Assembly (NCBI GenBank): GCA_963580285.1
Contig: OY757011.1
Span: 123,720,146-123,784,145 of the forward strand
Source of the DNA: Lucinisca nassula
Taxonomy: Eukaryota > Mollusca > Bivalvia > Lucinida > Lucinidae
Length of the DNA stretch: 64,000 nt
Direction: 5' to 3'
The notes under the pieces: model-generated
Seen by the model: only the letters and a program-made list of their open reading frames with translations
What the model was told of the DNA's origin: nothing
Database searches by the model: none
Part shown: piece after piece, positions 12,582-56,625 of the stretch
Layout of the letters: each line of letters begins with the position of its first letter
How positions within the stretch are numbered: the stretch's first letter is position 1
Translations under genes and position numbers: made by a program

Positions 12582-14285
12582 TGCACGACCCGCCGGATGC
12601 TTTTAGCTTTATGAGTGTAACCATATATGGGTATGGCGGCCATTTTGGTCATGTGACCTGGACCTAAAACGGCTCCCCCAATAAATGCGCCTTATCGTAA
12701 GGAGCAAAATATATCTTATACTTTAGTACTGTATTCTGAATGGTTCGCAGGATAAAATGCATTCTCACTTTTCCAATACAAAAGCATATGTGTCAAAGTT
12801 TGACCTAGGCACAAAGAAGGTCAACCCAGGGTCACCATTTTAGCAATTTATGATGGGCCTTCGTCCCAGATGCTATTTATCAAGTTTCGTGGAAATCTGC
12901 CCAGTGGTTTTGGAGAGACTATTTTTGAAGGGTTTTTACCATATATGGCTTGGCGGCCATTTTGGTCATGTGACCTGGACCTAAAACGGCTCCCCCAATA
13001 AATGCGCCTTATCGTAAGGAGCAAAATATATCTTATACTTTAGTACTGTATTCTGAATGGTTCGCAGGATAAAATGCATTCTCACTTTTCCAATACAAAA
13101 GCATATGTGTCAAAGTTTGACCTAGGCACAAAGAAGGTCAACCCAGGGTCACCATTTTAGCAATTTATGATGGGCCTTCGTCCCAGATGCTATTTATCAA
13201 GTTTCGTGGAAATCTGCCCAGTGGTTTTGGAGAGACTATTTTTGAAGGGTTTTTACCATATATGGCTTGGCGGCCATTTTGGTCATGTGACCTGGACCTA
13301 AAACGGCTCCCCCAATAAATGCGCCTTATCGTAAGGAGCAAAATATATCTTATACTTTAGTACTGTATTCTGAATGGTTCGCAGGATAAAATGCATTCTC
13401 ACTTTTCCAATACAAAAGCATATGTGTCAAAGTTTGACCTAGGCACAAAGAAGGTCAACCCAGGGTCACCATTTTAGCAATTTATGATGGGCCTTCGTCC
13501 CAGATGCTATTTATCAAGTTTCGTGGAAATCTGCCCAGTGGTTTTGGAGAGACTATTTTTGAAGGGTTTTTACCATATATGGCTTGGCGGCCATTTTGGT
13601 CATGTGACCTGGACCCCATGAGCAAATTTTGGTTTCCCCCATCCCATAGAGGCCCCATATGAAATTTGACTTCAATCGGCACAACGGTTTCCGAGGAGAA
13701 GCAGTTCGAAAATTTTCACAATTTTCGCCTCGGCGAGGCTATACTAACTGGAATGTAATAATTCGCAAGTTCATTGGTTAGATCTCATTGATATCTATCA
13801 GTATGCCAAAAATTGTTTAAATATTCCAAGCGGTTAAGTCACTATCACCAATTTTCACAAACGGGTTACGGACGGACAGACAGACCATATATGGCTTGGC
13901 GGCCATTTTGGTCATGTGACCTGGACCCCATGAGCAAATTTTGGTTTCCCCCATCCCATAGAGGCTTCATATGAAATTTGACTCCAATCGGCCCAACGAT
14001 TTCCGAGGAGAAGCAGTTCGAAAATTTTCACATTTTTCGCCTCGGCGAGGCTATACTAAATGGAATGTAATATTTCGTAAGTTCATTGGTTAGATCTCAT
14101 TGATATCTTTCAGTATGACAAAAATTGTTTAAATATTCCAAACGGTTAAGTCACTATCACCAATTTTCACAAACGGGTTACGGACGGACAGACAGACTGA
14201 CAGACTGACAGAATGACACGGTGATTTTAGGGCACTCTTAGAAAATCAACCGACTTCAGTCGGTCGCTTTTCTGCGGGTCGTGCA
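12582..14285 (+). mobile_element. Helentron-like element with 317-bp tandem core
   Basis: The ends carry the complementary motifs 'tgcacgacccgc' (12582-12593) and 'gcgggtcgtgca' (14274-14285). A 3' hairpin region 'accgacttcagtcggt' lies just inside the right end. The core has three 317-bp units followed by two related units of about 312 bp (from about 13575 and 13888). Each unit opens with 'ggcggccattttggtcatgt'. A microsatellite-like 'gacagacagactgacag' stretch precedes the 3' terminus. No protein is encoded. Confidence 0.65.
12634..13584 (+). repeat. Three tandem 317-bp units
   Basis: The phrase 'tggcggccattttggtcatg' recurs at 12634, 12951, 13268 and 13585, giving a spacing of exactly 317 each time. 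By eye the three units are identical. Identity this high implies a very recent expansion, gene conversion or an assembly duplication. Confidence 0.85.
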
Positions 14286-18400: not shown

Positions 18401-18606
18401 AATGTTGCCGACGCCATAAACTGTCAAACAGGATTTCAAAGTGAAGGCCGTTAGTCTGTCCCTAAATAGTTTTCAAGTTACAGAGGAGACACAAATATAT
18501 TACAGAAATCAATTTTATTCAATGTTCAAAGGGTGGTAACTTCAGAAGTAGATTAGCGAGAATTGTGGTTCTTGTGTTCTGGACCTCAAATCATAATGCT
18601 TTTCGT

Positions 18607-20322
18607 TGAGGTTTTAAATAAATTGAAATCCAGACATTTTCGTGCTTCAAGTCTGTCTACTTACGATTTTTCCACTCTTTACACTACACTTCCTCATAAT
18701 CTTATAAAAGAAAAGCTTAATGATTTAATTGAATGGGCTTTTCACAGAGAAGATTCTCTCTATCTTGCATGTAATGTCAGAAATGCATTTTTCACTTCTA
18801 AAGAGCATAAGAATTATACACTTTGGTCATGTCAGAAAGTGTGTGATGCCCTCACCTTTCTACTTGACAATATTTATATTAGATTTGGTACTAAGTTATT
18901 TAGACAAATTGTGGGTATTACGATGGGTACGAATTGCGCACCTCCTGTGGCTGATCTATTCTTGGATTGTTATGAAAGAGACTTCATGTTGTCGCTTTCC
19001 ATTGATAATCAATCTGAAATTATTGAAGCTTTTAGCTCCACTTCTTGATATTTAGATGATTTATTAAATATTGATAATACCTATTTCGATGGTTTGATCA
19101 GTCAGATTTACCCCCCAGAACTTCAGTTAAATAAAGCAAATTCTTCTGATACCGAGGCCCCGTTTTTGGATTTACATCTATCTATTGTAGATGGATTTGT
19201 ATTGTGCAAAATTTATGATAAACGCGATGACTTTGATTTTGAGATTGTAAATTTTCCTTTTTTGGATGGTGATGTTCCTCGTGCGCCATCCTATGGCGTT
19301 TATATTTCGCAATTAATTCGATTTGCTAGAGTGTGTAGTCATGTAACTGACTTCAACACTTGTAATAAATTATCAACGGCTAAACTCCTTAATCAGGGTT
19401 ATCGGTACCATAAACTACGCAAAGCCTTTTCAAAATTTTATAGACGCCATTCTGATTTAATTTCAAAATTCAATATTGGACTTAAATCTCTTCTGCAACA
19501 AGGTCTATCGGAACCCGAATTTTATGGTGACTTAGTATATAAATTCAGAAAAATATATAACCGCAATGACTTCAGCACCCAATTTCGTAAAATCATTCTT
19601 CAATATAAAAAAATTGGGTACAACATGGATGTTATACGACAGACTGCATGCATGGTAGTTAACCCAATCACGGTTGGCAACTTTGCTTCCCTCTTTAATT
19701 GCACGCCGGTGGGTCAGGCCTAAGATTCTATGACGGCTCCAACGTAAAGGCTTATTGAGAATTAGAGAAATTTAATTCAAGGTAATGCTGGTTGGTGCCT
19801 GATGCTCTGTCTCTGGTTGGGCCCATCGGAGTCTAACTGTTGGTTTTCTTTTGCTCCAGCGTTTCAGTGGTTTCTTGCTGTCTAGTCCTCACCATTGTCC
19901 CACCTCTGTGGTTCTTTGATTTTTGTGTTCACGGAGATGTTGCACTGATGAGTTAGGAGGCCTTCATGCGGACTGAACAAATTTTTTGTCTAAATCGCGA
20001 CGGAAGTAAGGGCGTGGATTGTGGCCACGTAAAATCGATTTAAGCCCCCCAGTGGAAATCTTCCACTGACCGTTCCAAGGCGGCTCTTCTGTGGCGATTT
20101 ATTTATGTTGTTGTTTGTTACTTACTGTGTGTACCACTTGTGTTTTTAAATTTTGGATGGCCATATGGCCATTTTGTGGGAAAGTAACTGTCCTTATGGC
20201 CTTCCTTTGTTTAGGTTTCCATTATGGTCTGGTCGCTTAATGTTTGTATTTCTTTCCCTTTGGTGTCTTTTATGGGTGGAGTAAGTTAATTGTATCAATT
20301 CCTGATCTTTGTTTTACTTCTA
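18607..20322 (+). mobile_element. Penelope-like retroelement, 5'-truncated
   Basis: About 1.7 kb inserted in a helentron-like core. It holds the reverse transcriptase and C-terminal region, then a 600-bp 3' UTR that ends 'gttttacttctactt'. The same 3' UTR occurs at 28731-29336, 45633-46200, 60540-61244 and 62578-63180, so this is an active or recently active family here. No GIY-YIG endonuclease is evident downstream of the RT. Confidence 0.8.
18608..19723 (+). pseudogene. Penelope-like reverse transcriptase, one in-frame stop
   Basis: The reading frame shows Penelope-type RT landmarks: YDFSTLYTTLPH (metal-binding region), VGITMGTNCAPPVADL, YLDDLL (catalytic Asp pair), then a long C-terminal region with APSYGVYISQL and QGYRYHKLRKAFSKFYRR. 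A single TGA (19046-19048) immediately precedes YLDDLL; the frame is the same on both sides. CGA to TGA at a CpG site is a plausible origin, since PLE RTs often have R before YLDD (inference). The RT would copy element RNA onto chromosomal DNA. The N-terminal third is missing. No GIY-YIG motif is seen after the RT. Confidence 0.8.
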
Positions 20323-23689: not shown

Positions 23690-26600
23690 TTTTTTAACAT
23701 TACACTACATGTTATATATTGAAAATAAACCCCGCCCACTGCAGCCATGTTTTTAGTCGGATCAAAATTTCTTCAAGAAATCTGACAGAGGTCCACCAAA
23801 GGAACATGCATGCCAAATAACTATGAAATAAAACAAGAACTTTTGCAGAAAATATTTTCAGCATTACACTATATGTTATATAGTGAAAATAAGCCTCGCC
23901 TATGGTGGCCATGTTTTTTTGTAAGATCAAATTTTTTTCAAGGAATCTGACAACAGTCCACCCAAGGACAATTCATGCAAATTACAATGAAATCCCACAA
24001 GTACTTTTGCAGAAGAATTTTTAGCATTACATTATATGTTAAATAGTGAAAATAAGCCCCGCCCATGGCGGCCATGTTTTTTGTCGGATCAAAATTTCTT
24101 CAAGGAATCTAAAAGAGGTCCACCCAAGGAACATTCATGCAAAATAAAAACAAGGCATCGCATGTGATACAAATCCCCTCGCACTAGACAACTTCGTGTG
24201 TGGAAAACACTGAAATGGCAAAAGTCCAACTTGCTTGAGATATTATCATATGCAACATTTGTGTAAAGTTTGTTTAAAAATCCTCCAATAAATGTACATT
24301 CTAGAGTGATGACGTTTCTCTAAAAATAGCCATAGTGACCTTGACTTGAGGCCATGACCACGAAAGTAGATCTTGCTCAAGATATTATCATAAGCATCTT
24401 TTGTGTGAAGTTATATTAAAATCTGTTAATAAATGTAGACGGTAGAGCGATGACAAAGTTTTTCTAAAGATAGCCACAGTGACCTTGACTTTGAGGTCAT
24501 GACCTTGAAAGTCGAAGTAAGTCGAGATATTATCATAAGAAACATTTGTGTGAAGTTCTATTACAATCCATCATTAAATGTAGGCCCTAGAGCGATGACA
24601 AAGTTTTTATAAAAACAGCCACAGTGACCTTGACCTTGAAAGTCTAAACAGCTCGAGATATTGTCATAAGGAACATTTGTGTGAAGTTATATTGAAGTTG
24701 GTGAAAAAATGTAAGCACTAGAGCAATGACAAAGTTTTTCTAAAAATAGCCATTGTGACCTTGACCTTGAAAGTCAAACTCACTCGAGGTATTGTCATAA
24801 GGAACATTTGTGTGAAGTTATATTGAAATGGGTGAAGAAATGTAAGCGCTAGAGCCATGACAAAGTTTTTCTAAAAATAGCCACAGTGACCTTGACCTTG
24901 AAAGTGGAACTCACTTGAGATATTGTTATAAGGAACATTTGTGTGAAGTTATATTGAAATCGATAAAGAAATGTAAGCGCTAGAGGGATGATGAAGTTTT
25001 TCTGAAAATAGACACAGTGACCTTGACCTTGAAAGTGGAACTCGCTAGAGATATTGTCATAAGGAACATTTGTATGAAGTTATATTGAAATTGGTGAAGA
25101 AATGTAAGCACTAGAGCGATGACAAAGTTTTTCTAAAAAATAGCCACAGTGACCTTGACCTTGAGGCCTTGACCTTGATAGTCGAACCCGCTTGAGATAT
25201 TGTCATAAGGAACATTCGTGTGAAGTTATATTGAAATCAGTGAAGAAATAAAGGCGATAGAGCGATGACAAAGTTTTTTTCTAAAAAAAGCCACAGTGAC
25301 CTTGACCTTGAGGCCATGAGTTGGAAAGTCGAACTCGCTGGAGATATTTTTATAAGGATCATTTGTGTGAAGTTATATTGAAATTGGTGAAGAAATGTAG
25401 GCGCAAGAGCGATGAAAAAGTTTTTCTAAAAATAGCCACAGTGACCTTGACCTTGAGGTCATGACCTTGAAAGTCCAACTCGCTCAAGATATTGTCATAA
25501 GGAACATTTGTGTGAACTTATATTGAAATCAGTGAAGAAATGTAGGAGCTAGAGTGATGACAAAGTTTTTCTAAAAATAGCCACTGTGACCTTGACCTTG
25601 AAGCTATGACCTTGAATGTGGAACTCGCTCGAGATATTTTTATAAGGATCATTTGTGTGAAATTATTTTGAAATTGGTGAAGAAATGTAAGCGCTAGAAC
25701 CATAACAATGTTTTTTTAAAAATAGCCACAGTGACCTTGACCTTGAGATCATGACCTTGAAAGTCAAACTCGCTCGAGATATTTTTATAAGGATCATTTG
25801 TTTGAAGTTATATTGAAATTGGGGGAGAAATGTAGGCGCTAGAGCCATGACAAAGTTTTTCAAAAAATAGCCAGAGTGACCTTGACCTTGAAAGACGATC
25901 TTGCTCCAGATAGTGTCGTAAGGAACGTTCGTGTGAAGTTATATTAAAATCGGTCAAGAAATGTAGGCGCTAGAGCGATGACAAAAGTACGTACGTATGT
26001 ATGTGGCGCTAGAGCGATGACAAAAGTACGTACGTACGTGGCGCTAGAGCGATGACAACAGTACATACGTACGTATGTATGGAACAAATGCTATATCCCC
26101 CCTCACAACTATGTTGTGCGAGGGGATAATGAAATCCAACAGGTGGGTTTGGAGGAGAAGATTTTTAAAGATTTTTTTTTTTTGTTTTGTTGCCATGGCA
26201 ACCAGAGTTCTGGGTGTAACAAAATTCTTTGAAGGAATTTAGAAGAGGACTAAGTAAGGAACATTCCTGTGAAGTTTGGTTACAATTGGCCCAGTAGTTT
26301 AGGAGGAGAAGATGTTTTAGCATTACACTATATGTTAAATAGGGAAAATAAGCCCCACCCATGGCGGCCATGTTTTTTGTCGGATCAAAATTTCTTCAAG
26401 GAATCTGAAAGAGGTCCACCCAAGGAACATTCATGCAAAATAAAAATGAAATCCAACAGGTGGTTTTGGAGGAGAAGATTTTTAAAGATTTTTAATTTTT
26501 TGTGTTGTTTTGTTGCCATGGCAACCAGAGTTCTGGGTGTAACAAAATTCTTTGAAGGAATTTAGAAGAGAACTAAGTAAGGAACATTCCTGTGAAGTTT

Positions 26601-37499: not shown

Positions 37500-38452
37500 C
37501 TACTGATACTGCGACTGCGTTGGTCACATTTGACCATTACCGCAGGTGTACATTACACAGTGTTCAATCTAGGATTTGGGGTTTGGGGGCCCTCTGGGTC
37601 CACAGGTCTTGGAAAAGGGGGCCATTCGGAAATGTAGGGGGCCCTTAAATTATACTACATAAAGTTGCCAGATTTATCTTTAGGTTTTGGCTGCATGATA
37701 AAAATGGACACAAAACAAGTTAAACATCACAGACAAAATCTATTCTGTTAGTCTATCTATCCATCTTCTAATACATATGCTCATTACCTCTGTTAACCAG
37801 TAAAAAGCCATTTGGATAAAGTGTCTTGCTCAAGGGTTAAATACATGTTTTATTTAGAATGAATGCCATTAAATTTATTTCTGTAAGTGAAGAACTCTAT
37901 AATAAATAGCGCCGGCCTCGGTATTTTTGCGGTATTTCGGTCCTGTATTTAGCGTAAGCCGCACGGCGCACACGAACACGGCGTAAGCCGCTCGGCGCAT
38001 ACAAGTATACCGAACATGGCCGCATCCCCGGTAAACAAAACATCGATTTGGGTTTGAAAAATAAGAATTGTTACTAGTTAAACAGATAAAACAAAACGTT
38101 TTTCTGAGTAATTTTGATTGGGCAACATGCAGTTTGTGATAAAACTCAATAATACGCACCAGGCAGCCGAAAAATCACAAAAATGAACTCTAGAAGAAAC
38201 AGTCACAAATTCTACAGTTGCGCCCGACGGGCCCATTGAATGATCTCTAGTGCGCCCCTCATGTAAAAAGCGGGCCCAGGGCGCAATGGCGCAGCCTAGA
38301 TTGAACACTGCATTACATACACTCCAGGTTTTGCAGGATGAAAGTCTACACAGTAATCATGTAATTATGGCAGGGATCTTTAACCTGCACATGGGATGGT
38401 TCTCCCTGCACAGGGGGCCTCCAGTTAATGTCCCGATCCGAAGGACGGAGCA
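37500..38452 (-). mobile_element. SINE family B copy split by a hAT-like element
   Basis: Left piece 37500-37557 (tail region, 'tttgaccattaccgcaggtg') and right piece 38311-38452 ('tttgcaggatgaaagtct', 'atctttaacctgcacatggg'). Together they match the antisense of 44120-44466, but the tRNA-like head is missing. The split is caused by 37558-38310. Confidence 0.7.
37558..38310. mobile_element. hAT-like non-autonomous element 2
   Basis: A 753-bp insertion with TIRs 'cagtgttcaatctagg' and 'cctagattgaacactg' (16 bp, perfect), flanked by 'cattaca' on both sides. The host SINE sequence continues cleanly across it. GC-rich 'gggccc' and 'gcgccc' motifs near the right end recall the element at 34747-35529, suggesting a related family. 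No transposase is recognised. Confidence 0.75.
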
Positions 38453-38529
38453 CTTTGGAATTATGAGTGGTGAAACGATATGTCTCTAACTGGGACTCCC
38501 CCCCCCCCCATCGGGAATTTAAGAAATAG

Positions 38530-38992: not shown

Positions 38993-41407
38993 CTCAGAAT
39001 CAGAATCAGAATTGTTACTGGTGACACGTCAAATGACATTCATACACCAGGACCTGTGATGTGGGAAGTTAGTCCCTAGCTCTAACCAAAGAGGTAAATT
39101 TAGCTACACAATCATCAGCACCTTCAGCTGTCGAGATAATCGAATCGGGAAGGGCATTCCAATCTCTAATGGTTCTGGGGAAGAACGACTCTTTATAAAT
39201 GTCGGTTCTTGCGCTAAGGGTCTGAAATGCCAACGAATGGTGATTTCTACAGTGTCTAGCTGGGGGAACAAGGTCATCTGTTGGAATGCTTGCAGCACCC
39301 TTTAGACCTTTGTATAAAAGGATTAGCCTACTGTCTTTTCTCCTTTTCTTGAGAGACTCCCATTTTAATTTTCCAAGTATTCCAGTCATGCTCCCAGTTT
39401 CAAAGCAGTAATTGCCTGTTACAAATCTAGCAGCTCTATTCTGAACTTTCTCAATTTCATCATTAAGGACCACTCCACTGGGGTCCCAGATACAACTACC
39501 ATATTCCAAGATTGGGCGAACAAGACCTTTATATGCTGCCTCTTTTACATCCTGAGGGCACTGATGAAGATTTCGCCTCAGGAAACCAAGCGTTCTATTT
39601 GCCTTAGTACACATGTTGCTAATATGAGTATTCCATCTCAAGTTGTGTGAGATTGTCACTCCAAGGTATTTAATGGAGTCCACATTTTCGAGGACCGTTC
39701 CCTCTAAGGTGTAAGAAGCCTCAACTTTATTAGATCTCTTCCTAGTTATCTGCATAATATTGCATTTAACTGGCTGAAATCTCATGCCCCATTTACGTGC
39801 CCAACATCCTAATCTATCTATGTCAGCCTGAAGTTTCAATGAGTCATCTGTATCTCTAATTTCCCGGTAACAAACACAGTCATCTGCGAACAGTCTTATT
39901 TCTGAGTCAATGTCAGTGGAAATATCATTGATGTACAGGGAGAACAAAAGTGGACCAAGAACGGTCCCTTGCGGGACTCCAGACAAAACTGGAGCCCACT
40001 CCGAAGATTCACCATTAACAACAACCCGCTGTTTTCTGTAGCAAAGAAAGGAATCTATCCATTTGAGGGTCTTTCCCCCAATTCCATAACCAAATAACTT
40101 AGATTTAAGTAGTTCATGAGGAGGGGTGTCAAAGGCCTTCTCGAAGTCCAGAATAAATGTGTCCACCTGTCCCCCTTTGTCCAAGATTTTTGCCCAGTCA
40201 TTAATAACTGTGCTTAGCTGAGTTTCACAACTGTGCCTTTTCCTAAATGCATGTTGCCTGTCTGACAAAAGTTTATGCTCGTCCAAGTGGGCCATGATGT
40301 TTGAGCAGACTATATGTTCCAGCAATTTACACAGAACACAAGTCAGAGACACAGGGCGATAATTACGGGCAAGAGCCCTATCTCCTTTTTTGAAGAGTGG
40401 ACAAATGTTTGCTAAGAGCCATTCTTTGGGGATTTCACCCGTATCAAGAGACTGTTGAAACAAGTGTGCGAAAACTGGACCCAACTCATTTGCTAGTTCC
40501 TTCAGGACTCTGGGATGAAGCTCATCAGGTCCTAAGGCCTTACTGGGGTTTAAGCCTTGAAGTAATTTGATCACTCCTGCAGCTGTCACAACAATATTAT
40601 TCATGAATGGGGCCGATCTTCCAGTCAATGGAACCTCCGTGAACTCAGTTTTATTAAACGCATCATTGAATTGACCAACTAGTTCCTCTGCCCTTTCAGA
40701 GTCTGATTCAGCAACCCCGTCCCCTCCTCTTTTATTAAGGGGCGGGATGCCTTGCCTGTCTTTCTTCTGGCTATTAATATATCTGTAGAAGTCTCTGGGA
40801 TTTGCCTTTACATCACCTACCAAGTTATTCACATACAAATCATGCTGATTTTTTATATCAGTCTTGATTTCACGTCTCAAGTTTTCAAATTTTGTCCGGA
40901 GTTTACCACTTCCCGTCTTTTTTGCCTTTGCATGAATCTTATTTCTTCTGCGAATTTTCCTTCTTATCTCTGGAGTGATCCAGGGAATAGAAGATACAGG
41001 CCTACTAGTTTTTGAGGGGATATGATTTTCGGCCGAAGTATGAATGAAAGAAGTTATCAAATCAAAATTCTCTTGTATAGACCGAGCATCTGAATGACCA
41101 TTAAAGTAATTCTCCTTTGCAAATCTGAGTGCATCCTTCCTCATAGTTTCATAGTCACCTTTCTGATATGAGTACACCTTCCTCCGAGGTTTCTTTATTG
41201 GTGGGATGTGAATTTTTAAATATCCGGAGACAACATCGTGGTCACTTAGTTTATCTGGGGAATGAATGTCTTCGAATTGTCCTGGCAAAGTCGTAAGGAT
41301 CAGATCCAATGTGTTCTTATCACGAGTGGGGAAGTTAACAATTTGTTCAAGGCCATGATCGTTCATAATGTCAATCAATATTTGTCCTTCCGACTGACTC
41401 AGCATTG
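38993..41407 (-). mobile_element. LINE 1 family (Jockey/CR1-like), 5'-truncated
   Basis: About 2.4 kb. It has one long ORF and then a short 3' UTR ending in a six-base repeat (sense 'attctgattctgattctg', at 38993-39012). Short tandem repeats of an ATTCTG type at the 3' end are a hallmark of CR1-like LINEs (family knowledge). The 5' end stops inside the endonuclease domain next to a SINE B tail. Broken copies of the same family lie at 47957-50640, 50690-51345 and 58450-59853. Confidence 0.85.
39069..41405 (-). CDS. Non-LTR reverse transcriptase (endonuclease C-terminus + RT)
   Basis: 778 codons without stop or frameshift. Residues 1-65 are the end of an apurinic-type endonuclease/exonuclease domain, with the catalytic SDHD at 54-57. 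The RT follows: NPSKALGPDELHPRVL (about 286), NYRPVSLT (348), DFEKAFD (420-426), GVPQGTVLGP (476-485) and the catalytic FADD at 506-509. A thumb region follows with YLGVTI and LEYGSCIWDP, then a C-terminal segment ending FPRTIRDWNALP and about 30 residues more. The protein nicks DNA and copies its own RNA at the nick (target-primed reverse transcription, family knowledge). The first part of the endonuclease is missing, so this copy should be inactive despite its clean frame. The initiator is not a true start: the frame simply opens at the truncation point. Confidence 0.9.
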   Translation of the reverse strand: MLSQSEGQILIDIMNDHGLEQIVNFPTRDKNTLDLILTTLPGQFEDIHSPDKLSDHDVVSGYLKIHIPPIKKPRRKVYSYQKGDYETMRKDALRFAKENYFNGHSDARSIQENFDLITSFIHTSAENHIPSKTSRPVSSIPWITPEIRRKIRRRNKIHAKAKKTGSGKLRTKFENLRREIKTDIKNQHDLYVNNLVGDVKANPRDFYRYINSQKKDRQGIPPLNKRGGDGVAESDSERAEELVGQFNDAFNKTEFTEVPLTGRSAPFMNNIVVTAAGVIKLLQGLNPSKALGPDELHPRVLKELANELGPVFAHLFQQSLDTGEIPKEWLLANICPLFKKGDRALARNYRPVSLTCVLCKLLEHIVCSNIMAHLDEHKLLSDRQHAFRKRHSCETQLSTVINDWAKILDKGGQVDTFILDFEKAFDTPPHELLKSKLFGYGIGGKTLKWIDSFLCYRKQRVVVNGESSEWAPVLSGVPQGTVLGPLLFSLYINDISTDIDSEIRLFADDCVCYREIRDTDDSLKLQADIDRLGCWARKWGMRFQPVKCNIMQITRKRSNKVEASYTLEGTVLENVDSIKYLGVTISHNLRWNTHISNMCTKANRTLGFLRRNLHQCPQDVKEAAYKGLVRPILEYGSCIWDPSGVVLNDEIEKVQNRAARFVTGNYCFETGSMTGILGKLKWESLKKRRKDSRLILLYKGLKGAASIPTDDLVPPARHCRNHHSLAFQTLSARTDIYKESFFPRTIRDWNALPDSIISTAEGADDCVAKFTSLVRARD

Positions 41408-41411
41408 TGCC

Positions 41412-41739
41412 TTGTTACTGGGTTGGTCACACTTAACTATTACCTCAGATGTACATTGCATACTCTTCAGGTTTGCAGGATGAAAGCATACACAGTAATC
41501 AGGTAATCATGTAATTATGGTAGGGATCTTTAACCTGCATAGGGCTTGGTTCTCCCTGCACATGGGGCATCCAGTTAACGTCCCAATCCAAAGGACGGTG
41601 CACCTCATGACATTCATCCCTGCAAATGATGCCAATGGAGTGTGTTCGGACACTGAAATTTTATCGCCGCTGCCGGGGATCGAACCAGGGACCTCTAGCA
41701 TCAGAGGCAATTGCACAAACTACTGAGTTATCACGTTCC
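41412..41739 (-). mobile_element. SINE family B, near full length
   Basis: Antisense to 44120-44466, including the tRNA-like head. The minus strand reads 'gtgataactcagtagt' (box A, degenerate) and 'ggttcgatccccgg' (box B). The tail side touches the truncated 5' end of the LINE. Confidence 0.8.
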
Positions 41740-41841
41740 AGATTATTTATTGTGTAACTGTTATGGATAAATACCACTTCTACAGCCTTGCTGTAGGAGC
41801 TGGCTCTTTAAGCGACGCGGGTAGAGTGGTTGGCTTATTCA

Positions 41842-41893
41842 CGAAGTTAAGCAACGGATAACGCAGTTAGTACGTGGATGGGAGACTGCGTTG
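41842..41893 (+). promoter_or_regulatory. 5S rRNA-type internal promoter remnant in LTR 1
   Basis: 'gaagttaagcaacg' corresponds to the 5S box A region and 'gttagtacgtggatgggaga' to box C. They are separated by nine bases, the same spacing as in animal 5S rRNA (from memory). In 5S genes these bind TFIIIA and recruit pol III. Confidence 0.75.
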
Positions 41894-42121
41894 CTTGACT
41901 TTCGGTCCCGCTACATTGGTTGCAGCGGTGGGATGGAAACAGTGCCGCTGGTTTGTTACAGACTCCGCCCTAGGGTTTAGCCTTTTGAGGCATGTGTGGC
42001 TTCGGGACGAAGTCAAGAGATGAGGGGGAGAAATGTAACGGTTATGGATAAATACCAATTCTACAGCCTTGCTGTAGGAGCCTGCTCTTTTAGCAATGTG
42101 GGTAGAGTGGTTAGCTTATTC

Positions 42122-42172
42122 ACCAAGTTAAGCAATGGATAATGGGGTTAGTATGAGGATGGGTGACCACAT
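42122..42172 (+). promoter_or_regulatory. 5S rRNA-type internal promoter remnant in LTR 2
   Basis: 'tcaccaagttaagcaatgg' and 'gttagtatgaggatgggtga' match the same 5S boxes with different substitutions from LTR 1. This copy keeps 'tcacc' upstream and 'gggtgacc', as in animal 5S, where LTR 1 does not. Confidence 0.7.
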
Positions 42173-42211
42173 TGCTTGACTTGGTGGACGACCCGGTACA
42201 CACTACAATTG

Positions 42212-42423
42212 CTTGGCGTGACACTAGTTTTGTTCTGGTAGTCATTTAGCCGGCTCGCAGTTAAAATCAAACGTGCCCCTTTTCTTGATTCAAATTGATG
42301 CTGTATCTTGTATCCTACATTCGGTCTGTTACCCAAGAGTTTTCGGCTACGACCGATCCGTAATGCTTGCACCTCAGGCAGGAAGCCGCATGTTGTCAAC
42401 AGTGTCACAATATTGCTAATAAC
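42212..42423. other. Unassigned spacer
   Basis: Nothing recognised between the TRIM and the LINE. Confidence 0.4.
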
Positions 42424-43532
42424 CACAGGTCCCTGTTTTATCTGGAGTCCCCCAAGGTTCGGTCCTTGGACCGGTCCTTTTCTTGGTTTTCATTAATGAT
42501 CTCCCCGACAATATCAGGTCATCGGTCCGTTTGTTTGCTGACGATTGTGTCCTGTACAGGAACATATATTCTCCTTCTGACTGTCTTATTTTACAAGATG
42601 ACCTGGATCAACTTGCACAGTGGGAGGCCGATTGGCAAATGAAGTTCAATGTGGCCAAATGTCACTCAATGAGAGTGTCACGACACCCTCCGGACAAGCA
42701 AATTAAGTTTGACTATACTCTTCACCAGCAAGTTTTGGAGCACGTTCAATCCGCCAAATATCTTGGTATCACCATCACTGACGATCTTGATTGGGGTCAA
42801 CATATCTCAGAGATTACATCTAAAGCAACTAGGACTTTGGGATTCCTTAGACGGAACTTGGCTTTTGCACCTAGGCAGACAAAGGATGTTGCATATAAAA
42901 CATTGGTTCGCCCTCAGCTCGAATATGCATCACCCATTTGGCACCCCTATGTTAAAACTCAGACTCAGCAGGTGGAGAAGGTGCAGAGGACAGCTGCTCG
43001 ATGGACCTGTAGGCGATGGCGAAATAGAAGTAGCGTCGGTGACATGCTTAATGAGCTAGAGTGGCCGTCCCTGGAGGCCCGTCGTGAGCAGTCCTCTTTA
43101 ACCTTCTTCTACAAGATACACTCTGATTCAGTGTCTATTGATAAAGATAGGTACTTGACCCCTGTAACACTGTCGACCCAAACAAGGGCATCAAAATTAA
43201 ACGACTCACAATATCGTAGATACCAGTCCTATAGTGATGCCCTGAAGAACTCGTTTTTTCCTAGAACTATTCCCCAATGGAATAGTCTTCCCTCCTCTGC
43301 GGTGAATGCCAAGTCCGCAGATGAGTTCAAAGCCCGCACAGTGTAAGATTGGGTCTCAGAGGTATGCGTTTTAGGATACCTCTGTTATGCAGATTGTAAA
43401 TAGTTTTAAGGACGCATCCAGTGCCTCTCTTTTTTTCTTTTTTTTTTCAGCTAAATTCTAAATTTAGCCACCCAATCAACTGAGGTAATGGCCAGATATG
43501 ACCGACTCAGTATAAGAAGATAGATAGATAGA
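42424..43532 (+). mobile_element. LINE 2 family, 3' half with GATA tail
   Basis: 5'-truncated inside the RT palm. It holds the rest of the RT, a short 3' UTR and the tail 'gaccgactcagtataagaag' followed by (atag)n. The terminal ~50 bp are nearly the same as the tail of SINE B. Other copies: 44845-47198 (split), 57437-57727 and a 40-bp tail fragment at 55565-55604. Confidence 0.85.
42429..43346 (+). pseudogene. LINE 2 reverse transcriptase, truncated
   Basis: The open frame enters at the palm: SGVPQGSVLGPVLF, FINDLP and the catalytic [10 protein letters not shown], then YLGITITDDLDWGQH, TLGFLRRNLAF, TLVRPQLEYASPIWHP and a C-terminus with FFPRTIPQWNSLPSS. The frame is uninterrupted to a stop after KARTV. 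The fingers and the endonuclease are missing, so it cannot act alone. The sequence is distinct from LINE 1 but belongs to the same broad Jockey/CR1/L2 class. Confidence 0.85.
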
Positions 43533-44119: not shown

Positions 44120-44466
44120 CATAGCTCAGTGAAGCGTGATAGCTCAGTGGTTAGTGCACTTGCCTCTGATGCTAGAGGTCCCGGGTTCGATCCCCGGCAG
44201 CGGCGATAAAATTTCGGTGTCCGAACACGCTCCATTGGCATCATTTGCAGGGATGAATGTCATTAAGTGCACCGTCCTTCGGATCGGGACGTTAACTGGA
44301 GGCCCCCTGTGCAGGGAGAACCATCCCCTGTGCAGGTTAAAGATCCCTACCGTAATTACATGATTACTGTGTAGGCTTTCATCCTGCAAAACTGGAGTGT
44401 ATGTAATATACACCTGCGGTAATGGTCAAATGTGACCGACGCAGTATCAGAAGATAGATAGATAGA
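44120..44466 (+). mobile_element. SINE family B, full length (tRNA-derived)
   Basis: The head (about 44135-44205) has box A 'tagctcagtgg' and box B 'gggttcgatccccgg'. A ~260-bp body follows, and then the tail 'gaccgacgcagtatcagaag' plus (atag)n. It is flanked by 'gaccctg' and 'gacccctg' and interrupts the left TIR of the host element. The final ~50 bp match the LINE 2 3' end. Confidence 0.85.
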
Positions 44467-44540: not shown

Positions 44541-44827
44541 AACTAGAATATGTATATTTAAATGTTGGAATTCAATTATTTTCAAACTTTTGCACATAAT
44601 TTTAACGTACATATGCCTAATTACTTTTTGAACTAATTTTGTTGAAATTATGAGTAACCCATATCACAAAATTAGCCATGAGTTAAATGAACCCAATGCC
44701 GTTGATTGAACAAGTGTATGACACGCTGCTCTGGGTCCACTCTCACTCGATCTCCGATGTAATTGATAAACTAATTGATTAAATGGCGTGTAATAACATC
44801 TATGTTGTAATTACATCTCTGACCCAA
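44541..44827. other. Internal sequence of the TIR element
   Basis: AT-rich, no ORF and no repeat recognised. Confidence 0.35.
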
Positions 44828-44841
44828 GGGGGGGGGGGGGG
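44828..44841 (+). repeat. Poly-G tract
   Basis: A run of about 14 G directly before the LINE 2 fragment. Confidence 0.85.
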
Positions 44842-45632
44842 TGGCTAAACTGTTGGGTAAGCTCAAGCTACATAAGGCATATGGGCCAGACGACCTGAAT
44901 TCCAGGTTACTTAAAGAATGTAGTGCTGAAATCTCTCCTGTATTAGCCTTTATCTTCAATGAATCACTTGCCCAGGGCACTGTACCAGATGACTGGCGGC
45001 AAGCAAATGTTACCCCGGTCTATAAGAAAGGGGAAAAATGTGATGTAGCAAATTGTAGACCAGTGCCGCTAACATGCATCTGTTACAAAACCCTGGAGCA
45101 TATATTAGTAAGCAATATCCACAAGCACTTAGTCTTTGAAAGCATTCTTACTGACTGTCAACATGGTTTCCGGAGTCAAAGGTCTTGCGAAACGCAACTA
45201 GTTCAATTTTACCATGCCATTGTGAGCAATCTTGATGGGGTCATAAACTGTGGCCACAAACAGACTGACTTAATCATCATGGACTTCGCAAAGGCATTTG
45301 ACAAAGTACCTCACCGAAGGCTATTATATAAACTAGCTTAGTTAGAATGGGATAAGTGGATCCACGCCTAGGTGGATTAGCTTATGGCTCTCTGGGCGCT
45401 CACAACAAGTTGTACTTGATGACCAAGCGTCTGATCCAGTCCGTGTTTTATCTTGGGTCCCCAAGGTAAGGTCCTTGGACCGCTCCTCTTCTTGATTTTC
45501 ATCAATGATCTCCCGGTCCGTTTGTTTGCTGATGATTGTGTCCTGTATAGGAACATTCATTCTCCTTCTGACTGTCTTATTTTACAAGATAACCTGGACC
45601 AACTTGCACAGTGGGAGGCCGATCGGCAGATG

Positions 45633-46740
45633 AAAAGTAGAAGTAAAACAAAGATCAGGAATTGATACAATTAACTTACTCCATCCATAAAAGACACCAA
45701 AGGGAAAGAAATACAAACATTAAGCGACCAGACCATAATGGAAACCTAAACAAAGGAAGGCCATATGGACAGTTACTTTCCCACAAAATGGCCATATGGC
45801 CATCCAAAATTAAAAGACACAAGTGATACACACAGTAAGTAACAAACAACAACATAAATAAATCGCCACAGAAGAGCCGCCTTGGAACGGTCAGTGGAAG
45901 ATTTCCACTGGGGGGCTTAAATCGATTTTACGTGGCCACAATCCTCGCCCTTACTTCCGTCGCGATTTAGACAAATAATTTGTTCAGTCCGCATGAAGGC
46001 CTCCTAACTCACCAGTGCAACATCTCCGTGAACACAGAAATCAAAGAACCACAGAGGTGAGACAACGGTGCGGACTCGACAGCAAGAAACAACTGAAATG
46101 CTGGAGCAAAAGAAAACCAACAGTTAGACTCCGATGAGCCCGACCAGAGACAGAGCATCAGGCACCAACCAACATGATCTCTTTAATTTTCAATAAGCCT
46201 TTACGTTGGAGCCGTCATAGAATCTGAGGCCTGACCCACCGGCGTGCAATTAAAGAGGGAAGCAAAGTCGCCAACCGTGATTGGGTTAACTACCATGCAT
46301 GCAGTCTGTCGTATAATATCCATGTTGTACCCAATCTTTTTATATCGAAGAATGATTTTACGAAATTGGGTGCTGAAGTCATTGCGGTTATATATTTTTC
46401 TGAATTTATATACTAAGTCACCATAAAATTCGGGTTCCGATAGACCTTGTTGCAGAAGAGATTTAAGTCCAATATTGAATTTTGAAATTAAATCAGAATG
46501 GCGTCTATAAAATTTTGAAAAGGCTTTGCGTAGTTTATGGTACCGATAACCCTGATTAAGGAGTTTAGCCGTTAATAATTTATTACGAGTGTTGAAGTCA
46601 GTTACATGACTACACACTCTAGCAAATCGAATTACATGTAATTGCGAAATATAAACGCCATAGGATGGCGCACGAGGAACATCACCATCCAAAAAAGGAA
46701 AATTTACAATCTCAAAATCAAAGTCATCGCGTTTATCAAG
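45633..46740 (-). mobile_element. Penelope-like element, 3' half, inside LINE 2
   Basis: Minus-strand insertion. The RT C-terminus (46740-46201, DKRDDFDFEIVNFPFLDGDV...) is followed by the 3' UTR to 45633. The LINE frame is interrupted between 'gatcggcagatga' and 'aagttcaatgtggcc', so the junctions are sharp. No long target duplication is visible. Confidence 0.85.
46201..46740 (-). pseudogene. Penelope-like RT C-terminal part
   Basis: About 180 codons, nearly identical to the end of the 19.7-kb copy: APSYGVYISQL, GYRYHKLRKAFSKFYRRHS, QGLSEPEFYGDLVYKFRKIY, and the terminal segment FASLFNCTPVGQA. It differs by a two-residue insertion (HV) after ISQL. The catalytic RT core is missing because of 5' truncation. 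No GIY-YIG motif at the C-terminus. Confidence 0.85.
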
Positions 46741-47198
46741 TTCAATGTGGCCAAATGTCATTCAATGAGAGTGTCACGACACCCTCCGGACAAGCGAATT
46801 AAGTTTGACTATACTCTTCTCCAGCAAATTTTGGAGCATGTTCAATCTGCCAAATATTTGGTATCACAATCACTGACGATCTTGATTGGGGTCGACATAT
46901 CACTGAGATTACATCTAAAGCAACTAGGACTTTAAGATTCCTTAGACGTAAATGATGTTGCATATAAAACATTGGTTGGCCCTCAACTGATGCATCACCC
47001 ATTCGGCATCCCTGTGTTAAAAACAAATTCAGCAGGTAAAGAAGGTGCAGAGGACAGCTACTATATGGATCTGCAGGCGATGGCGAAATAGAAGAAGCGT
47101 CGGTGACATGCTTAATGAGCTAGAGTGGTCATCCATGGTGGCCCGTCATGAGCAGTCCTCTTTAACCTTCTTCTATAAGATACACTCTGATACAGTGA

Positions 47199-56342: not shown

Positions 56343-56625
56343 GGGCTTATTTGGCAGGTGTAAATTACACTCCAGATTTGCCGGATGAAAGCCTACACAG
56401 TAACCATTTAATTACGGTAAAGATATTTCACCTGCACATGGTATGGATCTCCCTACACAGGAGGCCTCCAGTTAACGGCCCGATTCGAAGGACGATGCAC
56501 TTTGTGGCATTCATCCCTGCAAGTGGAGCATGTTCTGACACCGCAGTTTTACTTACTCTGTCGTGAATCGAACCGGGGGCCTCTAGCAGCACAGGCAGGT
56601 GCACTAACCACTGAGCTATCACACT
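56262..56625 (-). mobile_element. SINE family B with expanded tail
   Basis: The minus strand has box A 'tagctcagtgg' and box B 'ggttcgattc', then the family body. Its (atag)n tail has expanded to about 80 bp (56262-56341 as (CTAT)n on the plus strand). It lies directly beside the foldback element. Confidence 0.8.

Follow-up and report, generated by a model that had tools for sequence, protein, structure and literature searches.

We consider it likely that the element at positions 41753-42207 of the window, the 64,000-nucleotide stretch of the Lucinisca nassula genome analyzed here (C2:123720146-123784145), represents a non-autonomous miniature LTR retrotransposon (TRIM) that was active recently and of which this copy has decayed, whose LTR has captured the internal promoter of the host 5S rRNA gene and which would move by an RNA polymerase III (pol III) route with the aid of a helper element. 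What the sequences themselves display is an LTR/primer site/interior/polypurine tract/LTR structure, 4-bp duplications, high copy number, identical LTR pairs, a 5S block, a run of four Ts (T4) and arrays; from these, we infer that the family is transcribed by pol III. The initial annotation had proposed a Cassandra-like miniature LTR element carrying 5S promoter sequence, and this proposal is supported by host copies of the same structure, by their 4-bp duplications and by alignment with the host 5S gene.

The window copy and its family in the host genome

The window copy, all features of which lie on the forward strand, was delimited by repeat comparison within the window and with the family loci described below. 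It consists of a 5' LTR of 163 bp (41753-41915; 174 bp in most other copies), a non-coding interior of 118 bp (41916-42033; 120 bp in most copies) and a 3' LTR of 174 bp (42034-42207). As annotated initially, the two repeats start with TGTAAC and end with CTACA; they are 86.6% identical over 149 bp, with 20 differences. The ATTG noticed on both outer flanks (41749-41752 and 42208-42211) is an exact 4-bp repeat, not a 5-bp one, and the chance of such a match is about 0.005. No second copy was found within the 64-kb window, and a search of the window with the two flanks joined revealed no empty site. Sequence scans of a viral contig set and a genome contig set found no relatives; the sole match in the viral set, to a phage-like contig (L001), shares 18-20 bases by chance and was rejected.

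To place this copy in a family, the host genome (2.93 Gb, 696 contigs) was searched with the whole element, which gave at least 60 matches. The best 40 of 2126 first-look candidates were scored, and 30 full-length loci, the window copy included, were taken as the best matches and not as a random sample. The typical copy measures 468 bp, with LTRs of 174 bp around an interior of 120 bp; it does so exactly in 27 of the 30 loci, which differ from one another by 2.3% on average. Merging of overlapping loci left 26 distinct insertions, of which 21, arrays included, carry an exact 4-bp target duplication. None is present in the other five (L004, L006, L009, L013 and L031; L004 and L006 are off by one base), and a 5-bp target duplication was seen in 0 of the 30 loci. 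In keeping with a TRIM, the 30 loci have two LTRs, a primer-binding site and a polypurine tract at the LTR borders, a length below 1 kb and no coding sequence.

The exact 23-base junction between LTR and primer site occurs 432 times in the host genome, compared to 0 times for a reversed-pattern control. The first 30 of these 432 junctions served as a second sample, and all 30 belong to the 468-bp family; 13 of 21 distinct insertions readable at both ends carry an exact 4-bp duplication. The many copies that the initial annotation had led us to look for are present in hundreds, and exact 4-bp duplications were seen in both samples; the copy counts refer to copies with an LTR and a primer site and are lower bounds. 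Copies lacking the LTR, primer site and polypurine tract, or ending elsewhere, would have spoken against that annotation; the sampled copies share structure and ends. Nor was a larger autonomous element with these LTRs seen in the 30 junction loci, which all represent the small family. Two loci of the second sample (L072 and L080) are without a second LTR; the open frames in the 1.5 kb that follow their junctions are short, reaching at most 118 codons, in low-complexity sequence. In L058, L079, L080 and L083, the junction with the primer site is intact and only parts of the 5' LTR can be matched to that of the family, which may reflect decay, insertions or a promoter-less variant.

Among the 17 single copies with LTRs of equal length, seven have identical LTR pairs, and therefore the activity of the family is recent. 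The window copy is an old, atypical member. Its LTRs differ in CpG sites, seven having been lost from the 3' LTR and none from the 5' LTR when 41753-41901 is compared with 42034-42182. A mix of two sources was considered for this 7:0 asymmetry and dropped in favor of plain ageing of one insertion, which does not account for the asymmetry but is the simpler view, because at LTR positions 107, 109 and 122 the two window LTRs depart from L004 together.

Of the 21 insertions flanked by exact duplications, six are arrays of head-to-tail copies that repeat every 294 bp. Such arrays would be expected if the copies were tandem 5S-derived SINE3 units or a 5S-related satellite and not an LTR element at all. 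This we regard as extremely improbable, since the arrays start and end with an LTR and are bounded by 4-bp duplications, and since primer site and polypurine tract lie exactly at the LTR borders; the paired ends and the duplications refute it. In L032 and L033 and in the arrays of L005, L011, L012 and L022, 3 to 7 LTRs are enclosed by one 4-bp duplication, and these arrays look as if they had been inserted as a unit or had grown after insertion.

The primer-site-like start of the interior and the polypurine tract, both noticed initially, were confirmed at the exact LTR borders. In the window copy, the interior begins with T and TGGTTGCAGCGGTGGGAT and ends with the polypurine tract GATGAGGGGGAGAAA (42019-42033), which adjoins the 3' LTR. 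Its counterparts in 27 of the 30 loci are T followed by TGGTGGCAGCGGTGGGAT (with one deviating position in each of L002, L012 and L018) and, likewise in 27 of the 30, CAAGAGATGAGGGGGAGAAA followed directly by TGTAAC. When 11 tRNA ends were compared with the primer site predicted at 41917-41934, tRNA-Leu(AAG) agreed at 17 of 18 places; the next best, which we take to be a second leucine end, reached 14 of 18, and the rest 8-11. The 3' word of this tRNA-Leu has 36 exact copies in the host, and one of them (in L088) is a tRNA-Leu(AAG) gene according to ARAGORN. The comparison with the host's own tRNA ends, suggested by the initial annotation, showed that the tRNA-Leu(AAG) 3' end with CCA is complementary to the family primer site at 18 of 18 places, as found in 27 of the 30 loci.

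The 5S-derived block and its predicted hairpin

The box A and box C words of 5S genes had been reported from both repeats at native spacing. The pattern indeed occurs twice in the window, both times inside an LTR, and in 0 of 100 dinucleotide shuffles of the window. In the 5' LTR, the 5S-derived block extends from box A to box C at 41838-41889 (LTR 86-137), and in the 3' LTR it lies at 42119-42168 (LTR 86-135). The host 5S gene is represented by 47 scored matches to the Rfam model, the best at 119.1 bits, and the 12 copies compared show no difference in their 119 bases. On C1 (221.5-221.7 Mb), C13 (108.0 Mb), C16 (81.0 Mb), C26 and C514, such genes follow one another at intervals of about 2.1 kb and about 9 kb.

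Local alignment with the species' own 5S gene, another check proposed at the outset, gave scores of 67 for the LTR of L004, 52 for the window 5' LTR and 38 for the window 3' LTR, compared to maxima of 31, 28 and 29, respectively, in 2000 shuffles each. In the LTR as in the host 5S gene, GGATGGG follows AAGTTAAGC at an offset of 32 bases. Across LTR 92-137, the 3' LTR of the window copy agrees with host 5S at 34 of 46 positions and those of the other 29 loci at 37-42 of 46. The 5S match does not vanish when one turns from the window to the family; the opposite was seen, the better-preserved L004 matching more strongly than either window LTR. Scores of only 30-43 were obtained in the second sample for L058, L067, L079 and L083. 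Within the block of the three LTRs, agreement with host 5S amounts to 11-13 of 15 positions in box A and 14-16 of 18 in box C, but only 3-4 of 6 in the IE, with box limits taken from general background knowledge.

The Rfam 5S model did not report the window block, and chance similarity to 5S might be argued on this ground. We find chance practically inconceivable as an explanation: the pattern appeared in 0 of 100 window shuffles, and the alignment score was reached by 0 of 2000 shuffles for each of the three LTRs, results that refute it. We read the silence of Rfam as due to the presence of only about 50 of the 119 5S positions, and did not accept it as evidence against a 5S origin, since only a fragment of the gene is there.

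In 82 aligned LTR rows, the mean frequency of minor letters is 0.019 in box A and 0.020 in box C, compared to 0.112 in the spacer at LTR 105-113. This spacer is among the most variable parts of the LTR: 163 of 166 windows of equal length vary less, and only three, the spacer included, vary as much. As many as 30 of 163 windows are as conserved as box A or more so, and 21 of 160 are so relative to box C. Box A and box C are hence among the more conserved stretches of the LTR, but not the most conserved. In Cassandra, the sequence that separates box A from IE is polymorphic in a similar way, as described in the available text of PMC10853983.

The 5S block is embedded in a predicted hairpin, in which LTR 86-103, on the box A side, pairs with its inverted repeat at LTR 138-155, downstream of box C (42119-42188 in the window 3' LTR). 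The stem has 18 pairs in L004, with a fold z of -7.4, and the corresponding values are -2.9 for the window 5' LTR and -6.0 for the 3' LTR, compared to -0.6 for the corresponding stretch of host 5S. Counting the 18 pairs in 82 rows, we found 1426 standard pairs, 31 non-standard pairs and 19 gapped cells, and the arm of the stem that follows box C equals the promoter boxes in conservation. Two double changes in the window 3' LTR (91/150 and 103/138) were considered as covariation and rejected, most pairs hardly varying in the 82 rows. As the pairs are almost devoid of covariation, the hairpin is conserved but not proven as an RNA structure.

These features can be joined in a broader reading, which we offer tentatively and hold to be possible but not probable: a Cassandra-like element born independently in animals, its promoter rebuilt as a hairpin with an 18-bp stem and an RNA job of its own, its R region made by T4, and its capture of 5S one of a recurrent kind. 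The half of the promoter that contains box A would here be paired with its inverted repeat downstream of box C, in a stem that is missing from the 5S gene. Since the stem arm that follows box C is as conserved as the boxes, the RNA hairpin may serve a purpose of its own, for example by letting the helper element recognize or package the RNA, or by protecting it. If this broader reading is true, capture of 5S by LTR elements has been recurrent, in plants, in nemerteans and in the present lineage.

A proposed route of transcription and mobilization

When the host 5S alignment is extrapolated, the 5S start falls on LTR position 44 (41796 in the window 5' LTR), AAGTTAAGC standing at position 49 of host 5S and at position 92 of the LTR, with the 32-base offset to GGATGGG common to both. 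A short distance downstream, at LTR 55-58, TTTT is present in all 30 3' LTRs (42088-42091 in the window), in 29 of the 30 5' LTRs, the exception being that of the window copy, and in 78 of the 82 aligned rows. In the 3' LTR it is a candidate pol III terminator, which would close an R region of 15 nt. A further T4, at LTR 83-84, is found in some LTRs. The interior is free of T4 in 29 of the 30 loci; the exception is again the window copy, in whose 5' LTR the T4 has been lost.

According to the route that we favor, TFIIIA, TFIIIC and pol III would recognize the 5S block and start transcription near LTR 44, and the transcript would cross the 5' LTR and the interior to stop at the T4 of LTR 55-58 in the 3' LTR. 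The product would be an RNA about 0.3 kb long that has the same stretch of about 15 nt at either end. Since the promoter lies downstream of R, within the transcribed U5, each RNA would carry its own promoter onward. Because T4 is also present in the 5' LTR of 29 of the 30 loci, read-through is required there: pol III would pass over the T4 about 12 nt past the start in the 5' LTR and respond to it in the 3' LTR, which would give rise to the R region. That T4 is skipped in one LTR and used in the other is argued by analogy with Cassandra only, whose R region of 18 bp is stated in the available text of Kojima 2024 (PMC10886601) to follow the same principle, from start to T run. The RNA would be packaged by an autonomous Ty3/Gypsy-type element that likewise primes with tRNA-Leu, and copied by reverse transcription of the LTR type; the integrase of this helper would insert the product with 4-bp duplications.

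Transcription might be due instead to RNA polymerase II, starting from the TATA-like word ATAAATA at LTR 15-21 (41767-41773), with the 5S block as a passenger or an enhancer-like relic. This word lies 29-23 bp before the extrapolated start (-29 to -23) and is kept in 74 of the 82 LTR rows. A TATA-like word ahead of a 5S start is compatible with pol III, too. The ta-TRIM of cestodes, which is also primed by tRNA-Leu, is abundant in polyadenylated EST data as described in the available part of PMC4558846, a further point in favor of RNA polymerase II. Against it, box A and box C hold their native spacing and letters in young copies, and it is the spacer between them that varies most. We therefore consider an RNA polymerase II element rather unlikely, and prefer the pol III route. 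In a family this young, whose copies number in the hundreds and include identical LTR pairs, pol III drive of mobile LTR RNAs is directly testable in a living host, for which the hairpin and the T4-defined R region provide concrete, testable predictions.

Relation to known TRIMs and surroundings of the window copy

The initial annotation had left open whether an animal equivalent of Cassandra was described. One is: Ajax, a 5S TRIM known from two nemerteans, Notospermus geniculatus and Lineus longissimus, has copies of 421 and 434 bp and 5-bp duplications according to the available text of Kojima 2024 (PMC10886601), and the element reported here is hence not unprecedented. Kojima 2024 is also mentioned in a meeting report (PMC12859917, available text). 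Beyond Kojima 2024 (PMC10886601), no account of a further animal 5S TRIM was found in the accessible parts of the full-text literature, a body that leaves most subscription journals and supplements outside.

The 468-bp family and Ajax are alike in being TRIMs of 0.4-0.5 kb with many copies, in carrying only the promoter part of 5S in their LTRs and in using a tRNA-Leu primer. They differ in host, a bivalve as opposed to nemerteans, and in duplication length, 4 bp as opposed to 5 bp. Beside Ajax, which is known here by its published description, the 468-bp family also has head-to-tail arrays and a 5S block set in an 18-bp hairpin. Measured against the features of Ajax, the partial 5S is present (with the IE at only 3-4 of 6 positions) and so is the tRNA-Leu primer, but 5-bp duplications are not. 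Promoter sequence of a small-RNA gene in both LTRs is a feature of TRIMp3, the TRIMs with a pol III promoter, and the family shares it; we treat the family as an Ajax-like 5S TRIM within TRIMp3, Kojima's umbrella group, but not as Ajax, because the 5-bp duplication is missing.

It might nonetheless be Ajax itself or its direct descendant, passed on vertically or by horizontal transfer, given the same anatomy, the same partial block of box A, IE and box C, the shared primer tRNA and the similar length (468 compared to 421 and 434 bp). With 21 of the 26 insertions duplicating 4 bp and none of the 30 loci 5 bp, this is unlikely, as far as a comparison with the published description of Ajax goes. 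Since duplication length differs while the primer tRNA is the same, the 468-bp family looks like a separate or re-partnered lineage when judged from its sequence. If so, LTR elements seem to have captured the 5S promoter repeatedly. 5S-promoter TRIMs extend beyond plants and two ribbon worms. What is new is probably a further 5S TRIM lineage with another duplication length, arrays and a hairpin-embedded 5S promoter, in a probable new host phylum.

The choice posed by the initial annotation, between independent capture and a deep relationship with plant Cassandra, can be narrowed. Cassandra shares with the 468-bp family its architecture, with a 5S promoter in both LTRs, as well as tandem arrays and a short R region running from the 5S start to a T run. 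The gap between box A and box C is 18 in both window LTRs, which equals the 18 nt characteristic of Cassandra, and box C deviates from the plant Cassandra consensus at 2 and 0 of 13 positions. Yet Cassandra lives in plants, has a methionine-tRNA primer site and measures 563-968 bp in one data set (PMC10853983, available text), unlike the 468-bp family with its animal host and tRNA-Leu primer; box A in both window LTRs fits host 5S and misses the Cassandra consensus at 2 of 12 positions, and Kojima 2024 (PMC10886601), in its available text, holds Ajax and Cassandra to be independent in origin. Because the primer differs (Met versus Leu) and the block matches host 5S, a deep relationship appears very unlikely.

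Other animal TRIMs resemble the family in part. Helenus, in the available text of Kojima 2024 (PMC10886601), has pol III-type promoter sequence in its LTRs and 4-bp duplications in animals, molluscan and bivalve hosts included, but its LTR sequence is derived from a tRNA and not from 5S; in the window 5' LTR, Rfam recognized nothing, not even a tRNA, at E values up to 10. The ta-TRIM of taeniid cestodes (PMC4558846), in the available text, has a tRNA-Leu primer site, an interior probe primer that starts with TTGGTGGCAGCGG and, in Echinococcus multilocularis, mostly 4-bp duplications; unlike here, the terms "5S rRNA" and "RNA polymerase III" are both absent from the main text of PMC4558846. Its proposed partner is the LTR element lennie (PMC4558846, available text), which by analogy may illustrate the kind of helper expected for the 468-bp family. 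The biv-TRIM of bivalves is likewise a TRIM with tandem forms and has the purine tract GGGGAGA, but differs in its terminal repeats of 202-218 bp, its interior of 77-80 bp (here 174 and 120 bp) and its lack of an unambiguous primer site, all as given in the available text of PMC6934838; "polymerase III" is absent from the main text of that paper.

In the window, a tRNA-headed SINE-like repeat (41413-41735) ends 17 bp ahead of the 5S TRIM copy. It has relatives at 44135-44449 (opposite orientation, 88%), 56366-56622 (74%) and 38311-38453 (83%), and a tRNA match at 44140-44197, inside one of them, is the only Rfam match of the window at gathering level. Non-LTR reverse transcriptase genes or pieces, recognized by Pfam RVT_1, lie at 39069-41414 (reverse strand), 42423-43346 and 44823-45341 (both forward). 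The 781-aa non-LTR reverse transcriptase has many relatives at about 83% among the matches listed; a further relative (P0110, 77% identity over 71% of the query) is filed under a Candidatus Thiodiazotropha assembly and is probably host (clam) DNA in the bin of a lucinid symbiont. A host contig of 17,101 bp (C696) is probably mitochondrial: translated with the invertebrate code, its first 5 kb read as nad4L, cox3, nad2, an unusually long cox2, nad6 and cob, each on the same strand. According to the available text of PMC3285693, such coding on a single strand is distinctive of marine bivalves, cox2 attains 1206 bp in one tellinoid, and cox3-nad2 belongs to a block found in two tellinoids; a bivalve host is thus likely. 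Similar open frames at 18557-19723 (forward) and 46201-46761 (reverse) may be Penelope-like; two scanned pieces were without a Pfam match, and the first frame has thousands of relatives, some with PF26215. Tandem arrays occupy 12620-14197, with units of about 317 bp that are 96-99% alike, and 24221-25985, with units of about 145 bp that are about 80% alike.
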